A stretch of DNA of 64,000 bases, taken from positions 186,001-250,000 of the forward strand of contig NZ_JACCBH010000001.1 of the NCBI RefSeq assembly GCF_013409745.1, written 5' to 3'. Below are positions 3,909 to 51,521 of the stretch, piece after piece. Both the position numbers and the translations under genes were made by a program. The stretch is from Microbacterium pseudoresistens. GTDB lineage: Bacteria > Actinomycetota > Actinomycetes > Actinomycetales > Microbacteriaceae. The stretch's first letter is position 1. Each line of letters starts with the position of its first letter. The notes beneath the pieces were generated by a model that had not been told where the DNA came from, searched no databases, and saw only the letters and a list, made by a program, of their open reading frames with translations.

Positions 3909-4946
3909 TCAGTCGAAGACCATCACGCTCTTGATGTTGCGCCCCGACTCCATCGCCTCGAATGCTTCGAGCCAGTCCGCCAGCGGATAGACCCCGCCGA
4001 GCACCTTCTCGGTCTCCAGGCGGCCCGTGGAGAACATCGACAGCACCGCCTCCCACGTCGTCCAGGTGTGCGAGAACGAACCGGCGAGAGTGACGGCCTT
4101 GGCCACGAGCGGGTCAAGGCTGAAGTTCAGCGGCTGCGGTCCCCATCCGACCTTGACGATCGTGCCGTAAGGGCGCACGATATCGAGCCCCTGCTTGAGG
4201 GCGATGCTCACGCCGGTGGCGTCGATCACCGTGTGCGCGCCGAGCCCGTCGCCCAGGCTGCGCACGAACGCGGTGGCGTCCTGGGCCGTGATGTCGATCG
4301 CGTGATCGACACCGAGCTCCTTCGCCTTCGCGAGCCTGGCCGCATCGATGCCGGTGCCGAGCATGACGATCTCGCCCGCTCCGCGCAGTCGCGCCATCTG
4401 CGCGGCGAGCTGCCCGATCGTGCCCGCGCCCTGGATGACCACGACGTCGCCGGGCTTGATGTCGGCGCGCTCGACGACAGCGGTGTACGCCACCGCGAAC
4501 GGCTCTGTCATGGCCGCCTGCTCGAAGCTCACGTTGTCGGGGATGCGGTGCAGCACCCTCGGCTCGGCGACGAGGAACTCGCCGAAGGCGCCGTCACGGA
4601 TCGCGCCGTACCCTTCGCGCTCGGGGCAGAGGTTGTAGCGGCCGGTGCGGCACAGGGCGCACACGCCGCAGATCTTGGCGGCCGTCTCGCAGACGACCCG
4701 GTCGCCGGGCTGCCAGCCGCTCACGTCATCGGCGACGGCGGCGATGACGCCCGCCGTCTCATGGCCGAGCACCAGCGGCAGGGCGATCTCCCAGCTCTGC
4801 CCGTTGCGCAGCATGTGGATGTCGGATCCGCAGACGCCGACCGCCCGGGTGGCGATCAGGACGGTTCCGGGCTCGAGCTGCGGTTCGGTGACCTCTCGGA
4901 TCTCGACGGCTCCGTCTTCGAGCCCGTACTTCACCAACGCCTTCAT
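3909..4946 (-). CDS. Zinc-dependent alcohol/polyol dehydrogenase (MDR family)
   Basis: This is a medium-chain dehydrogenase of 345 residues resembling sorbitol and threonine dehydrogenases. It probably oxidises a secondary alcohol of a sugar or polyol with NAD. The catalytic zinc ligands are visible as Cys39 (CGSDIH) and His62-Glu63 (GHE), with a further Glu at 148. The four structural zinc cysteines are Cys93, 96, 99 and 107. The Rossmann motif GAGTIG is at 173-178. The start codon overlaps the stop of the upstream isomerase gene by 4 bases (ATGA), indicating translational coupling. Substrate is unassigned; threonine dehydrogenase is less likely given the sugar-gene context. Confidence 0.9.
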   Translation of the reverse strand: MKALVKYGLEDGAVEIREVTEPQLEPGTVLIATRAVGVCGSDIHMLRNGQSWEIALPLVLGHETAGVIAAVADDVSGWQPGDRVVCETAAKICGVCALCRTGRYNLCPEREGYGAIRDGAFGEFLVAEPRVLHRIPDNVSFEQAAMTEPFAVAYTAVVERADIKPGDVVVIQGAGTIGQLAAQMARLRGAGEIVMLGTGIDAARLAKAKELGVDHAIDITAQDATAFVRSLGDGLGAHTVIDATGVSIALKQGLDIVRPYGTIVKVGWGPQPLNFSLDPLVAKAVTLAGSFSHTWTTWEAVLSMFSTGRLETEKVLGGVYPLADWLEAFEAMESGRNIKSVMVFD

Positions 4947-5953
4947 CGTGCGATCTCCCGTCCGCGCGCGAGCGCGTCGTCCTCGATATCGGGTCGCGCG
5001 AGGCTCTCCAGCCCCGCCGCGGCGCGCGCCGCCTCCTGGGTGGCGACCCGGACGGCGGTGGATCCGCCGAAGTACACTTCCCGCGCCTCGCGCAGGAAGA
5101 GAACCGACTCGTGCATCTCGTCCATCCCGTTGACGCCGTCCTCGATGCTGACCCAGCCGTCGTAGCCGACGTCGGCGAGCGCGCGGAAGATGCGCGGGTA
5201 GTCGTTCATGCCCTTGCCGATCACGCCGTGCTGCAACGCGGGCGAGTAGCCGATCGTGCCGTCGGCGAGCCGGAGGTCGTCGAGGGTGGTCCCGGGGGCG
5301 AGGAAGCGATCGGATGCCTGCATCGTGACGACGCGATCGATCACCTCGTCGAGGAAGTCCGCCGAGTCCATGCCCGCCGTGATGGCGTTGGAAGGATCGA
5401 ACTGCACGCCGAAATGCACCCGATCCTCGATCGCGTCGACGATCTCGCGGAAGACATCGCCCTTCTGGGCGAACTCGACGTGCTGCCAGCTGCCGTCCTT
5501 GTAGTGGTTCTCCATGCCGAGCGTGATGTCGAGCTCGCGGGCCACGGGAAGCAGCCGCTCGTAGGCGTCGACGACCCAGGCGACCCCCTGCTCGCGGGAG
5601 ACCCCGGGGTGCTTCTGCCCCGACAGCACCCGCGTGCTGGCCCCAGCTCCCCCCAGGCGGCGGGTGATGCGCATCATCTCGAGCTGGCGATCGAACTCGG
5701 ATTCGCGCACCGAGGCGTCGGGGTGCGTGAAGTCGGGCGAGGTGCAGAGCATCGGCATCTCGAACCCCTCGGCGTCAAGGGCCTCCCCGATCGCATCCAG
5801 GTGATCGTCGTCGGTGCGCCAGAACATGCCCGAGTAGAGCTCGAGGCCGTCTGCCGGCAGGGTCGACGCCTTGGTGATCCACTCGAAGACGGTCATGGTG
5901 CGGGCGTCGCTGAGGGCGGCCAGGTCGCCCTTCGGGAAGACGCTGATTCTCAT
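4943..5953 (-). CDS. Sugar phosphate isomerase/epimerase (xylose-isomerase-like TIM barrel)
   Basis: This TIM-barrel protein of 336 residues belongs to the AP-endonuclease-2/xylose isomerase-like superfamily, which interconverts sugars or sugar phosphates using a divalent metal. Likely metal ligands are seen in GMENHYKDG (Glu, His), QFDPSN (Asp) and SIEDGV (Glu). The frame is open 41 codons further upstream, but the ATG at 5953 has AAGAGG five bases before it, and the longer version would run through the AT-rich regulatory island. The gene is followed by the zinc dehydrogenase with a 4-base overlap. Its relation to UlaE or Hyi-like enzymes cannot be settled by eye. Confidence 0.85.
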   Translation of the reverse strand: MRISVFPKGDLAALSDARTMTVFEWITKASTLPADGLELYSGMFWRTDDDHLDAIGEALDAEGFEMPMLCTSPDFTHPDASVRESEFDRQLEMMRITRRLGGAGASTRVLSGQKHPGVSREQGVAWVVDAYERLLPVARELDITLGMENHYKDGSWQHVEFAQKGDVFREIVDAIEDRVHFGVQFDPSNAITAGMDSADFLDEVIDRVVTMQASDRFLAPGTTLDDLRLADGTIGYSPALQHGVIGKGMNDYPRIFRALADVGYDGWVSIEDGVNGMDEMHESVLFLREAREVYFGGSTAVRVATQEAARAAAGLESLARPDIEDDALARGREIAR

Positions 5954-5996
5954 TGCAACCTCTTTGTCGATGATCTTCACGGGACAGAACGTCCAC

Positions 5997-6026
5997 GTCG
6001 AATAAATCTTACCTATAAGATCAGTA
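5997..6026. promoter_or_regulatory. AT-rich divergent control site, copy B
   Basis: GTCGAATAA at 5997-6005 and CCTATAA at 6012-6018 repeat the words of copy A. In this copy the inverted repeat ATCTTA (6006-6011), spacer CCTA, TAAGAT (6016-6021) is perfect. It lies between the divergent isomerase and Ldh2-type genes. I infer promoter and operator function, with the FCD-type regulator as likely binder. Confidence 0.5.
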
Positions 6027-6060
6027 GACGCACTGGCATCGTCGCCGAAAGGATTCCGGA

Positions 6061-7098
6061 ATGCCCATCGCCGCACACCGCCTTCAGCAGTGGGTCACCG
6101 ACCTGCTCACACGCTGGAACTATTCACCCGTCGACGCGGAGTACCTCGCCGATACCCTCGTCGACGCGAACCTGCGCGGCGTCGACTCCCACGGGGTCAT
6201 CCGTCTCGGCGCGTATCGCGCGCGGCTCGACGCCGGCCTCACCAGCGCGACCGCCGAGCCCGTGCTGAAAGGCACGGGTGCCGCACTGAGCGTCGATGCG
6301 AACGGCGCCGCGGGGCAGATCGCCGCGCGGCTGGCGGTGACCGCCGCCCGCGATGCGGCCCGCGAGCACGGCATCGCCGCCGTCGCGATCCACGGCAGCA
6401 CCCATTTCGGGGCGGCGGGGTACTACGCGCGCGCCCTTGCCGACGACGGCCTCGTCGCGATCGTCGTCTCCAACTCCGAACCCATCGTCGTGCCCTTCGG
6501 CGGCCGCGCCCCCCTGTTCGGCACGAACCCGTTCGCGTTCGCCGCCCCGACCAGCACCACCCCGATCAGCCTCGACATGGCCACGAGCACGTCGGCCATG
6601 GGCAAGGTGATGGTCGCCCAGGCCGAGGGTCGCCAGGTCCCCGCGGACTGGGGCGTCGACGCCGGCGGCAACCCCACCACCGATCCTCACGAGATCACCG
6701 CGCTGGTGCCCGCCGGCGGCCCCAAGGGCTACGCGCTCGGCTTCCTCGTGGAGATCCTCGGCGGCGTGCTCACCGGCGCGGCCATCACCCACGGCATCGG
6801 CAACATGTACAACGACTTCTCACGCCCGCAGGACGTCGGCCACTTCATGATCGCGATGGACCCGACCCGCTTCATCCCGTTCGACGACTTCACGGCGCGG
6901 ATGGATGCGCTCAGCGCGGAGGCGCACAGCGTCTCCCCCGCCCCCGGCTTCAGCGAGGTGCTCGTGCCGGGCGAGCCGGAGGAGCGCACCAGCCGCACCC
7001 GGGCCGAGACCGGCATCCCGCTGGCCGCCGCCACGGTCGATGAGCTCCGCGCGCTCGGCGCCGACGCCGGCCTGCCATTCCCCGAGGAGGGCGAATGA
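6061..7098 (+). CDS. Ldh2/malate dehydrogenase-family NAD(P)-dependent oxidoreductase
   Basis: This is a 345-residue member of the Ldh2/YlbC family, which includes 2,3-diketo-L-gulonate reductase YiaK and ureidoglycolate dehydrogenase, with a non-Rossmann fold. The signature DSHGVIR places a His at residue 44, the position of the catalytic His in YiaK. HFGAAGYYA, PFGG and GPKGYALG are also family hallmarks. It probably reduces a 2-keto acid or oxidises a 2-hydroxy acid. GAAAGGA lies 7 bases before the ATG. It is the first gene of a four-gene operon; its stop overlaps the next start by 4 bases. The precise substrate is not assigned. Confidence 0.88.
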   Translation: MPIAAHRLQQWVTDLLTRWNYSPVDAEYLADTLVDANLRGVDSHGVIRLGAYRARLDAGLTSATAEPVLKGTGAALSVDANGAAGQIAARLAVTAARDAAREHGIAAVAIHGSTHFGAAGYYARALADDGLVAIVVSNSEPIVVPFGGRAPLFGTNPFAFAAPTSTTPISLDMATSTSAMGKVMVAQAEGRQVPADWGVDAGGNPTTDPHEITALVPAGGPKGYALGFLVEILGGVLTGAAITHGIGNMYNDFSRPQDVGHFMIAMDPTRFIPFDDFTARMDALSAEAHSVSPAPGFSEVLVPGEPEERTSRTRAETGIPLAAATVDELRALGADAGLPFPEEGE

Positions 7099-47918: not shown

Positions 47919-49193
47919 GTGACCTCCCTCGGCGAGCTCATCGCGCCACGGCGCATGGGCACGGGCTTCCGCTGGCTGCTCGCCTCCTCGTGGACGAGCA
48001 ACGTCGGCGACGGCGTCGCGCTGGCCGCCGCGCCTCTGCTCATCGCGTCGATGACCTCGTCGCCCATCCTCGTCTCGCTCGGCGCGGTGCTGCAGTTCCT
48101 GCCCTGGCTGCTGTTCGGGCTGCACGCGGGCGCGATCGCCGACCGGTTCGACCGGCGCCGCCTGGTGATGCTCGCCAACGCCGGCCGTGCCGTCGTGCTC
48201 GTCGCGCTGTGCGCATTTCTCGTGACCGGCACCGCGAACATCGCGATCGTGCTCGTCGTCGCGTTCCTCTACGGCACCGCCGAGGTGTTCGTCGACACCG
48301 CTGGCAGCACGCTGCTTCCGATGCTCGTGAAGCCCGCCGACTTCGGCATCGGCAACGCCCGCCTGCAGGCCGGCTACCTCGTGGCGAACCAGTTCGCGGG
48401 GCCGCCGCTGGGCGCCTTCCTCTTCGCCGCCGGCACGGCATGGCCGTTCCTTCTCGAAGCGGTGTGCGTGTCACTCGCGATCGTGCTCATCTCGCGGATC
48501 GCGCGGTCGTCCGTCGCGCTGGCGGCCGCAGATGAGCCGACCGAGGCGCGCAAGCCCGTGCACACCGACATCGCCGAGGGCGTGCGGTGGTTGTGGCGCA
48601 ACCGCCCGGTCCGGATGCTCGTCATCATCATCCTCACCTTCAACGTCACCTGGGCGGCGCCCTGGGGAGTGCTCGTGCTGTATGCGACGGAGCATCTGCA
48701 CATGGGCGCTGTGGGGTACGGGATGCTGACCGCCGCGTCGGCCACCGGCGGGCTGTTGGCGACGGTGCTGTTCGGCTGGCTCGAGAGGCACGTATCGTTC
48801 GCCGCCCTCATGCGCGTGTGCCTGTCGCTCGAAGTGCTCATGCACCTCGCCTTCGCCCTGACGACCAACGGCGTCGTCGCGCTCGCCATCATGTTCGTCT
48901 TCGGCGCGTACGCGTTCGTCTGGGGCACGATCTCGACCACCGTGCGCCAGCGCCTCGTTCCGACCGCACTGCAGGGGCGCATCGGCTCGGTCAACATGGT
49001 GGGCGTATTCGGCGGAATCGTGATCGGGCAGGCCCTCGGCGGCGTGATCGCGCAGTTCTGGGGCCTGACCGCACCGTGGTGGTTCGCCTTCGTGGGCGCG
49101 GCGATCACCCTCGTGCTCGTCTGGCGGCCAATCTCGCACATCGCCGCGGCGAAGCCGGTGCGAGCGGATGACGACGGAAGCGAAGCCGCTTGA
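47919..49193 (+). CDS. MFS transporter (EntS/DUF894-like exporter)
   Basis: This 424-residue inner-membrane transporter has about 12 helices. The motif GLHAGAIADRFDRRRLVMLAN after helix two is the MFS loop, and helix four onward has FVDTAGSTLLPMLV and ARLQAGYLVANQFAGPPLGA, as in the EntS-like group of exporters. The start is GTG at 47919, directly at a basic leader, 55 bp after the divergent rsmA. Its stop codon lies inside the -35 element of the MerR-type promoter that follows. Substrate unknown; export of a drug or siderophore is inferred. Confidence 0.88.
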   Translation: MTSLGELIAPRRMGTGFRWLLASSWTSNVGDGVALAAAPLLIASMTSSPILVSLGAVLQFLPWLLFGLHAGAIADRFDRRRLVMLANAGRAVVLVALCAFLVTGTANIAIVLVVAFLYGTAEVFVDTAGSTLLPMLVKPADFGIGNARLQAGYLVANQFAGPPLGAFLFAAGTAWPFLLEAVCVSLAIVLISRIARSSVALAAADEPTEARKPVHTDIAEGVRWLWRNRPVRMLVIIILTFNVTWAAPWGVLVLYATEHLHMGAVGYGMLTAASATGGLLATVLFGWLERHVSFAALMRVCLSLEVLMHLAFALTTNGVVALAIMFVFGAYAFVWGTISTTVRQRLVPTALQGRIGSVNMVGVFGGIVIGQALGGVIAQFWGLTAPWWFAFVGAAITLVLVWRPISHIAAAKPVRADDDGSEAA

Positions 49194-49220
49194 CCTTCAC
49201 CCGGGGTGAATGCTGAGCAT
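49190..49220 (+). promoter_or_regulatory. MerR-type promoter with 19-bp spacer and palindrome
   Basis: TTGACC (49190-49195) and GAGCAT (49215-49220) are separated by 19 bases, the long spacing typical of MerR-controlled promoters. The spacer holds a perfect 7-base inverted repeat around one central base, TTCACCC, G, GGGTGAA (49196-49210). A start site 7-8 bases after the -10 falls on or next to the ATG at 49228. Confidence 0.75.
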
Positions 49221-49227
49221 TGGTTCC

Positions 49228-50310
49228 ATGACGACGTCAGAACAGCCGTTGCAGACGATCAGCGCATTCAGTCGCGCCGTCGGGTTGAGCACGAGCAGCA
49301 TCCGCGACTACGGCGCAATCGGCCTCCTCGTCCCCGCGGAAGTACACCCGGCATCCGGGTACCGCTACTACGCCGATGCCCAGCAGCGGCGAGCGATCTG
49401 GATCCGTCGCCTGCGTGAAGCCGGACTCGACCTCGACCGCATCCGCACCGTCGTAGACGCCGAACCGCAGGATGCCGAACGCATCCTCGACGACTGGCTC
49501 GCGGAGATCGATGCCCGGGCAGCGGCTGCGTCCCAGGTCGCCGAAGACCTCCGCGCCGAGTTGCGCGCGGCAGGCGGCGCATCCCCTGCTCGGACCTGTC
49601 GCGTTCGGGTCGTTGTCGAGGCGGTCGTGGCTGCCATCCAGCAGGTCATGAGGGCGTGCTCTCGGGAGGATGACTCCTTCGCGACGGTGCTGCTCGAAGC
49701 GGATTCCGGACGACTGTCGATCACTGCGACCGATCGTCGGCTGCTCATCCGCCGAAGCGTCCCCGCCGTCACACTCGGCGATGCCGGTCGCTTCTGCGCT
49801 CGCCCTGACGAGCTGCTTTCCTGGCTCGATGCTCTCGCGCCCGGGCTATGCGAGTTCGTGATCGAATCGTCGGATGCGCGGAAACCTGGCGGCGATATCC
49901 CCCGTTCCATGCTTCTTGATGCCGATGGCGTTCCCATCGCCGTGCCATCCCGTATCGATCCGTTCCCGAGCCCGGAGCGACTGATCGACGTCGCGGACGT
50001 GCCCCTCGCACGAGCCGCCTTGCAACGAGCGGGCGCTGAGGCGCTCCTGAGCGACGCGACGACGGCAAACCTGCAGCTTGAGTTCGCGGACGGCACAGCC
50101 CGCCTCATCTCGGAGAAGGCAACGCTGACCGGACGCAGCAACGGTGAGACCCTGCGCCTCAGAGTCGCGCGATCACCGTATGCGACGGCCGTGCAGGCGA
50201 CGATCGGAGATCAGCTCACCTGCACGATCTACGCGGAGCCTCGACACATCGCGTGGACCGCCCCGTCCCAGCCCGACTTCGTCGCCCTGGCCACCTACCT
50301 GCCGGCGTGA
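49228..50310 (+). CDS. MerR-type regulator fused to a beta-clamp-like domain
   Basis: This 360-residue protein has a MerR-type winged helix at about residues 9-78 (ISAFSRAVGLSTSSIRDYGAIGLL, SGYRYY) and a helical linker to about 118. From about 125 to the end it looks like the DNA polymerase III beta sliding clamp (LSITATDRRLLIRRSVPA, then a C-terminal half ending with DFVALATYLPA). I chose the ATG at 49228 because the MerR-type promoter would start transcription there, giving leaderless mRNA; an ATG at 49210 lies inside the operator. The MFS exporter gene overlaps its stop by 4 bases. It probably activates itself and the exporter; the ligand is unknown. Confidence 0.8.
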   Translation: MTTSEQPLQTISAFSRAVGLSTSSIRDYGAIGLLVPAEVHPASGYRYYADAQQRRAIWIRRLREAGLDLDRIRTVVDAEPQDAERILDDWLAEIDARAAAASQVAEDLRAELRAAGGASPARTCRVRVVVEAVVAAIQQVMRACSREDDSFATVLLEADSGRLSITATDRRLLIRRSVPAVTLGDAGRFCARPDELLSWLDALAPGLCEFVIESSDARKPGGDIPRSMLLDADGVPIAVPSRIDPFPSPERLIDVADVPLARAALQRAGAEALLSDATTANLQLEFADGTARLISEKATLTGRSNGETLRLRVARSPYATAVQATIGDQLTCTIYAEPRHIAWTAPSQPDFVALATYLPA

Positions 50311-51521
50311 GCGCGACCGCCGTGCATCCGGGGTTCGCCGCCTGGGTGGGGGCGACGTTCGCCCTCGAGCTCGGCTCCGGCCTCCTCGCCTTTGCGCTGA
50401 CCTGGACGGCATCCGGCTACGGTTCGTTCGAAGCGGCGATCCTGCTGGCGCTGACGATCGCGCCCACCGTCGTCCTGACCCTGTTCGCCGGCACGCTCTC
50501 GGACCGATTCGGCCCTCGCCGCGTTCTCGTCGTCACGACCAGCGGCATGGTGGTCATCGCCGGATCGATCGCCACCGCGACGACCGTGCTTCCGGGGGAA
50601 CCCGGGGTGCTGCTCGTCGCCGCGGTGCTGATCGGCACGGTGTCGGCGTTCTTTCGGCCCGCGGCCGGTGTCTTTCCCCGACTCTTCGTCGCCGATCACG
50701 ACCTCGGAATCGCGATGGCACGCGTCGGCCTCGCCAGTCAACTCGCGCGCACGATCGGGCCGCCGCTGGGCGGCATCCTCCTGGGAGCGCTGACCCTCAG
50801 CGGTGTTGCCTGGCTGGATGCGTTCGGCTCATTGGCGATGCTCGGCGCCCTGTTGCTCATCCATCCTCCGAAGCGGGTCCTCGAACACGTCGATCGCGTC
50901 ACGCTGCGGGAGGCGTTCGCCGTCGTCCCCGCCATCCGGCGCGCCAGCGGCGCCGGCGCCGTGCTTCTGGGGATCGCGATCGTCGCTGGCGCCGTGATCC
51001 CGGTCGTGACCCTCGGTATCCCTCTCGCCGCGCGGGAACGCGGCTGGACCGTGGTCGATGCGGGGATCATCGAGTCCGGGTGGATCCTCGGCGGAATCGT
51101 GTGCGGAGCGTGGTTCGCGTGGCGCGGCACGATCATGCGCGTCATGCGGCCGATAACGCTGGGCCCGATCATCGTCGCCGCGGGTCTCGTTCTCCTCGCC
51201 CTCGCGTCACACCCCCTGGTCGCCACGATCGGCACGGCCGTTCTCGGCGCTGGCGTCGTCGTGTTCACCGCCCATGCGTTCCCGACGTACATCCTCCTCG
51301 CGCCGAAGGCCCTGATGACGCGGTTCCAGAGCGTCCTCATCTTCATCCAGCTGACGCCTCAGCTCTTCATCAATCCGCTGATCGGCGCGGGTGTCGACCT
51401 GTTCACGACAGCGCCGGTCATCATCGGTGCCGGTGTCCTTGCCATCGCCGCCGCCGGAGTGATGCTGGCGAACAAGCGCCTGCGCGCGCTCGGCGAGGAT
51501 ACCGGAACTGAAGACGGCTAG
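50307..51521 (+). CDS. MFS transporter
   Basis: This 404-residue inner-membrane transporter has about 12 helices and the MFS loop GTLSDRFGPRRVLVVTT after helix two, with FFRPAAGVFPRLF and a later TLGPIIVAAG. It resembles multidrug exporters of the EmrB- or EntS-like kinds. The GTG at 50307 overlaps the stop of the MerR-clamp gene (GTGA), so the two are co-made and the regulator likely senses its substrate. Its stop codon shares CTAG with the convergent GNAT gene. Confidence 0.88.
   Translation: MSATAVHPGFAAWVGATFALELGSGLLAFALTWTASGYGSFEAAILLALTIAPTVVLTLFAGTLSDRFGPRRVLVVTTSGMVVIAGSIATATTVLPGEPGVLLVAAVLIGTVSAFFRPAAGVFPRLFVADHDLGIAMARVGLASQLARTIGPPLGGILLGALTLSGVAWLDAFGSLAMLGALLLIHPPKRVLEHVDRVTLREAFAVVPAIRRASGAGAVLLGIAIVAGAVIPVVTLGIPLAARERGWTVVDAGIIESGWILGGIVCGAWFAWRGTIMRVMRPITLGPIIVAAGLVLLALASHPLVATIGTAVLGAGVVVFTAHAFPTYILLAPKALMTRFQSVLIFIQLTPQLFINPLIGAGVDLFTTAPVIIGAGVLAIAAAGVMLANKRLRALGEDTGTEDG

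Follow-up and report, generated by a model that had tools for sequence, protein, structure and literature searches.

MerR-type regulators fused to domains II and III of the DNA sliding clamp, a putative family of clamp-derived transcriptional sensors

The effector domain of BmrR, one of the MerR-type regulators, is GyrI-like. MerR regulators act on promoters with spacers of 19-20 bp, many of them controlling efflux pumps, and regulators of the BmrR and EcmrR type have a 19-bp spacer promoter with a dyad as well as a link to efflux (PMC8113463). The sliding clamp DnaN, a ring protein of three domains that keeps DNA polymerase on DNA, has been approached from another direction, as an antibiotic target: in mycobacteria the clamp is bound by griselimycins in a hydrophobic pocket (PMC11139829), and DnaN is also bound by mycoplanecins (PMC10817943). 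GriR and MypR, from the griselimycin and mycoplanecin clusters, are spare clamps used outside replication, in self-resistance, and in the published description mypR is a second DnaN gene and no regulator (PMC10817943). The main text of that paper never mentions a regulator, a transporter or MFS.

We analysed a stretch of 64,000 nucleotides from Microbacterium pseudoresistens (the window), in which one gene appears to join these two kinds of protein (Table 1). Its product has the MerR helix-turn-helix (HTH) in common with BmrR and EcmrR, and chains of both regulators are among the PDB matches of the fusion. A GyrI-like domain is found in two MerR relatives (L011 and L012), whereas the fusion matches clamp domains II and III instead; a GyrI-like effector domain was absent among the nine Pfam families listed for 13 fusion members at E up to 0.1. 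With DnaN the fusion shares homologous domains II and III and most of the subsite I pocket, but it has no domain I, its interface region is shortened and it is joined to a DNA-binding domain. Lack of domain I also sets it apart from GriR and MypR, each of which is a second complete DnaN. We consider it probable that the protein is an autoregulated one-component activator of the MerR type, whose effector part is clamp domains II-III and whose pocket senses a ligand, leading to induction of export. The earlier note knew of no characterised member of this kind, and its impression held: no paper on a MerR-clamp fusion was among the matches listed from open-licence PMC full texts (title and abstract opening), and no studied example was found in the literature searched there.

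Table 1. Features at the fusion locus, in positions of the window
Feature	Position	Strand	Remark
Upstream MFS_3 / EntS-like transporter, ahead of the fusion promoter	47919..49193	+	EntS model match below cut-off
-35 element TTGACC of a MerR-type promoter, overlapping the end (stop codon) of the upstream MFS gene	49190..49195	+	TTGAC[CT] in 43/43
Putative operator, perfect 15-bp palindrome TTCACCCGGGGTGAA within the 19-bp spacer	49196..49210	+	
-10-like element GAGCAT, 19 bp past the -35, with ATG 7 nt further on	49215..49220	+	
MerR-clamp fusion regulator	49228..50310	+	360 aa, frame open
MerR HTH, PF13411, residues 10-78	49255..49461	+	Pfam
Clamp domain II-like region, residues ~120-254, ATDR motif at 167-170	49585..49989	+	II/III boundary approximate
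Clamp domain III-like region, residues ~255-360; counterparts of E. coli 275-278 (ring interface) are lacking	49990..50307	+	
MFS transporter, putative exporter, GTG start overlapping the regulator's TGA	50307..51521	+	

Sequence comparison identifies the protein as a MerR DNA-binding part (residues 1-117) followed by clamp domains II and III (residues ~120-360), with domain I missing. Its likely start is at 49228, because an in-frame ATG at 49210 would fall inside the promoter. In Pfam, matches to MerR_1 (PF13411, E 3.2e-11), MerR and MerR-DNA-bind (E 4.6e-7, residues 55-109) all exceeded their cut-offs and lay within the first 109 residues, and MerR_1 was matched by 13/13 fusion members scanned. 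For the clamp part, the window sequence by itself gives only a hint, PF00712 being matched at E 0.00098 and 19.7 bits, below the 24.4 cut-off, and it is the family evidence that makes clamp homology firm. A profile of 13 fusions reached solved beta clamps in the PDB at E 2.3e-30, spanning domains II-III, and a profile of the window protein with four close relatives reached clamp 5ah2 at E 6.7e-4. Comparison of 17 fusions with 17 DnaN by hhalign gave 99.8% probability over 237 columns, aligning residues 120-360 with domains II-III; the match starts at about DnaN residue 121, and domain I is absent from it. Two single members also reached the DnaN model TIGR00663, at E 4.9e-13 and 1.4e-26, both below the model cut-off, with matches that begin at 129 and 110 of 367; the former is a member from a named plasmid, matching positions 129-366. 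With the Pfam model of the central clamp domain, one member (L227) scored above the cut-off. The stretch LSITATDRRL corresponds to the ATDRYRL-type motif of domain II, one residue shorter. PF02768 had a single match in the host genome, the canonical clamp, and missed both fusions of that genome, so that a very diverged clamp could escape this model. The fusion of a MerR regulator with a clamp-derived part, as the earlier note had read it, is thus confirmed by the Pfam, profile and hhalign results, although its description of that part as a sliding clamp needs narrowing: the homology is to domains II and III and not to a whole clamp. The adjoining transporter gene that it had described as coupled to the regulator is likewise present, and because the GTG at 50307 overlaps the regulator's stop codon TGA (50308-50310), translational coupling of the two genes may be expected.

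In total, 43 MerR-clamp fusions were collected, and the distribution of the family is wide but patchy. A full-length profile (E 1e-35) matched 35 of 394 genomes of the class, three of them (G910, G917 and G941) in the MerR part only, which leaves at least 32 genomes with a fusion, one partial and one split; within the genus, 9/247 genomes matched, three by MerR only, and at least 6 carry a fusion. These genome counts are lower bounds, since the best five candidates per genome were scored in the class search and the best eight in the genus search. When the C-terminal part was searched against 119 genomes of the genus, four matched: the host genome (twice), two others and, weakly, G117, where the matching protein seems to be unrelated. 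The three relatives from this search, including a paralogue at 660 kb in the host genome, were all MerR fusions. Wider searches added further fusions and gave matches in 266/299 and 138/396 genomes, ordinary DnaN included, and several DnaN matched the fusion query through domains II and III. A single-protein scan of genome contigs returned seven MerR relatives, all of them lacking a clamp part. The fusion is also present on four named plasmids from Streptomyces and Kitasatospora, where it is annotated only as MerR family transcriptional regulator; NCBI names for some proteins of this type refer to the polymerase III beta subunit. Among viral contigs, searches with fusion alignments gave two loci that matched in the MerR part only, and further searches gave 11 and 11 loci, which by match range mostly covered the clamp part only; one viral locus (L257, match from residue 68) was read as a candidate and proved to be an ordinary clamp. 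All four matches among phage records were confined to the MerR part.

Trees of the clamp part placed the fusions in one clade against DnaN, with support of 98 for 17 members and 93 for 42 members, the 17 DnaN having been picked from search matches, and this points to one origin of the MerR-clamp fusions. Three clades were distinguished: A, to which the window copy belongs (9 members), B (20, support 86) and C (13, support 100). Of the 43 fusions, 42 could be placed; the remaining one (L249:4647-5709) is broken over two frames and followed by a TPR-like gene, and its place in clade B is taken from the MerR sequence and the partner and not from the tree. Tree, pocket and interface counts exclude this split gene and refer to 42 members, whereas promoter and partner counts include it and refer to 43. 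Partial match G969 was not included in the fusion set, L236, overlooked in gene calling, was added by coordinates, and L063, L085 and L088, being the same genes as L082, L250 and L251, were counted once.

The residue sets of the pocket and the ring interface were taken from PMC11139829; PMC3335792 and PMC7261172 were also consulted. Among the 42 members, T172 was kept in 42, P242 in 41, M362 in 41 and P363 in 40. Eight subsite I residues that are conserved in DnaN were retained at 0.82, compared with 0.46 for sets drawn at random from 67 comparable sites (p 0.0005 by permutation). When every site of a set is counted, mean retention was 0.70 in subsite I (12 residues), 0.37 in subsite II (6), 0.02 at the interface (4, namely E. 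coli I272, L273, E298 and E304) and 0.23 in the rest (220). R152 and R246, two of the 12 subsite I residues, were mostly lost, and subsite II was poorly kept except in clade C. Residues matching E. coli 275-278 were absent in 42/42 members and residue 273 in 30/42. These comparisons, which concern aligned residues and not binding, indicate that the family has kept most of the clamp pocket and given up the ring, and ring formation by the fusion was rejected, domain I and the interface being gone. They agree with the earlier suggestion that the clamp part may have become a sensor, and a sensor is more likely than a replication ring. Alternatively, the clamp part might be a mere scaffold for dimerisation or stability, with the signal read elsewhere or the gene simply autoregulated; the strong divergence of the window's clamp domain fits such a role, and MerR proteins without large effector domains exist, but pocket residues are preferentially conserved in the family and the part lost is the ring interface, the natural contact surface of the clamp, and we regard this explanation as quite improbable. 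In the DnaN of the host's family, all five sequences sampled of 17 aligned (L017, L020, L026, L027 and L042) end in LLQPN, not LMPVR, so that the pocket residue corresponding to E. coli Met362 is Gln, whereas the clade A fusions except the window's keep Met there.

Structure models of the window protein were also obtained. Single-sequence AlphaFold2 was uninformative (pLDDT 38), also with regard to a putative dimerisation helix of the MerR type. A second model, of residues 118-360 aligned with 25 clamp pieces from viral contigs (rows L120, L122, L137 and L155 dropped), reached pLDDT 75 and pTM 0.72, with pLDDT below 50 in the last 27 residues and domain III partly out of register in the alignment. 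Foldseek listed only clamp chains among 50 matches, some with natural products or griselimycin bound, and VIA-align matched PCNA as well; query-normalised TM-scores were mostly about 0.5. Because the alignment rows are themselves clamps, this model is not independent, and because VIA-align puts many rows on domains I-II and not on II-III, the fold alone cannot name the two domains, which the sequence does. The possibility, raised at the outset, of another fold in the C-terminal region is thus answered in part: the model matches clamps, but it was built with clamp rows, and we take the clamp fold as supported, not proven.

Regulation of the fusion genes can be considered from their promoters. 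All 43 are preceded by TTGAC[CT][CT]TC, a spacer of exactly 19 bp and then xAxxxT, although the members are mutually related and do not represent 43 independent cases. Other spacer lengths from 15 to 23 fitted 0/43 genes each, except 22 (10/43). The dyad centred in the spacer has 4.86 of 7 pairs, compared with 1.84 in shuffles (43 genes). In 39/43 genes only 6 or 7 nt separate the -10 from the first in-frame start codon (1 nt in three, no start found in one), which suggests leaderless mRNA, and the fusion mRNA of the window is probably leaderless too. When the host genome was searched with the operator pattern, allowing up to 3 mismatches, exactly two sites were found, one before each fusion gene and each free of mismatches, and the reversed pattern, used as a control, had 0 matches; the regulon with this operator hence appears to consist of both cassettes. 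MerR genes without a clamp part had the same promoter layout in 7/7 controls, so that the layout demonstrates regulation of the MerR type and does not tell what is sensed. By analogy with the MerR paradigm, in which a ligand switches the distortion of the spacer (PMC8113463), a MerR dimer would occupy the dyad that lies within the 19-bp spacer of the regulator's own promoter. Entry of a ligand into what was once the peptide pocket, between domains II and III, would alter the dimer, which would then bend and undertwist the spacer and allow RNA polymerase to read the promoter. More regulator and more MFS pump would be made, and the pump would export the ligand or a related compound.

The genes next to the fusions differ between clades. 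Within 3.5 kb of each fusion gene we scanned for partners with two profiles, MFS and TPR-like; transporter counts are bound to one MFS family, as the MFS profile misses other types, for example near L246. An MFS gene of this family lay directly downstream in 10/43 cases, that is, 9/9 members of clade A and 1/34 of the others (L243, clade C). One of these clade A members (L247) comes from another taxonomic family, and MFS_1 was above cut-off in its transporter and in the three clade A transporters tested. A TPR-like gene followed the fusion gene or was fused to it in 19/43 (18/20 clade B and L249); one of the clade B partners was a weak match (L079) and one was fused (L227). The association of clade with partner gave Fisher values of 1.8e-8 for MFS and 2.6e-10 for TPR-like, in tests that ignore relatedness. 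Twelve of the 13 clade C members had neither partner by the two profiles, which overlooked the MFS of another type near L246. The fused case, L227:4338-5957 on the minus strand, is a single 540-aa ORF comprising MerR, clamp and TPR-like partner, the last by the partner profile and not by Pfam.

Such partners raise another explanation, in which the clamp part senses proteins and not small molecules: a clamp-binding protein, a free clamp-binding motif or, in clade B, the TPR-like partner would dock in the pocket, and the regulator would read the state of replication or repair. The natural ligands of the clamp pocket are indeed clamp-binding motifs (PMC11139829), and the single ORF of L227 suggests contact between partner and sensor. 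However, a simple regular expression found no stretch resembling a clamp-binding motif in any of seven TPR partners (the same loose expression matched all five MFS partners, in QSVL-like stretches that we took for chance), the operator pattern is limited to two cassettes in the host genome, and clade A is paired with a transporter. We judge protein sensing unlikely and favour induction of the pump by a ligand in the pocket, against which we count, as a family-wide account, that the clade B partner is TPR-like and not a pump. As for the EntS-like MFS gene upstream of the window's fusion, inspection by eye showed none of its kind among the genes listed immediately ahead of the fusions in the eight other clade A members. 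Over 407 aa this upstream transporter shares 58% identity with an MFS_3 protein (L246:2190-3425) whose gene precedes, at a distance of two genes, a clade C fusion from a different taxonomic family. Transporters of this type are common, and the likeness may be chance. The window MFS protein had no plasmid match at 1e-5.

The window's own copy has diverged strongly in its clamp part. Its terminal branch was the longest in both trees (1.2 with 42 members, 1.5 with 17 members). In the clamp part it was 29-30% identical to four clade A relatives, compared with 44-60% among the relatives themselves; corresponding values were 49-52% and 56-68% for the MerR part, and 50-55% and 61-72% for the MFS. Of subsite I it keeps T172, L177 and P242 and hydrophobic residues at 155, 247 and 360, but M362 is lost and tyrosine 175 is absent. 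It is one residue short beside ATDR, the column of the gap differing slightly between alignments. Its C-terminus, ALATYLPA, can be aligned with Thr-Tyr in place of Met-Pro, or with a two-residue insertion and Leu-Pro in place of Met-Pro; in both placements Met is lost, whereas Pro is perhaps retained. A more typical fusion copy is the paralogue at 660 kb, and the window copy could be its decaying, functionless duplicate. The long branch, the missing pocket Met and the residue lost beside ATDR would be expected of such a relic, yet the frame is open, the operator palindrome is perfect, the overlapping MFS gene is intact, and both the MFS and the MerR part stay close to half identical to those of the four relatives, which makes decay very improbable in our view. 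Given its long branch, the lost pocket methionine and the residue missing beside ATDR, the window copy may sense another, possibly new, ligand, or sense poorly.

With respect to the nature of the ligand, griselimycin-like compounds and mycoplanecins are plausible candidates, by analogy with their binding to clamps. Counted against a griselimycin-type ligand are the loss of R152 and R246 in most of the family and, in the window copy, that of the pocket Met and of one residue beside the ATDR motif. A more specific proposal is that the sensor mimics an antibiotic target, the clamp pocket having been turned into a ligand domain so that clamp-binding natural products switch on their own export. We advance it tentatively, as possible but rather unlikely to be correct in this form. 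In its favour, Met362 is kept in the clade A sensors except the window's, and the five sampled clamps of the host's family have Gln there, which would fit a sensor that still reads the pocket in its ancestral form. If the reading of these fusions as ligand sensors is true, a core replication protein has been exapted as a transcriptional sensor, and the fusions form a family open to experiment, whose promoters read out an antibiotic target, the clamp pocket. Should pocket ligands induce these promoters, the fusions would be ready-made biosensors for clamp-binding natural products, and the swap of partners, a transporter in clade A and a TPR-like protein in clade B, would represent a natural experiment on how the signal is used.

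Another MerR with an unusual sensor was met in the same searches. The MerR-PP2C proteins of Streptomyces (L007-L010, at about 4929-6068) have a related MerR part, a similar promoter and an unusual C-terminal domain, which by Pfam is a PP2C phosphatase domain in L008 and L010 and not a clamp. Some plasmid genes of the MerR-PP2C type are named protein phosphatase 2C domain-containing.
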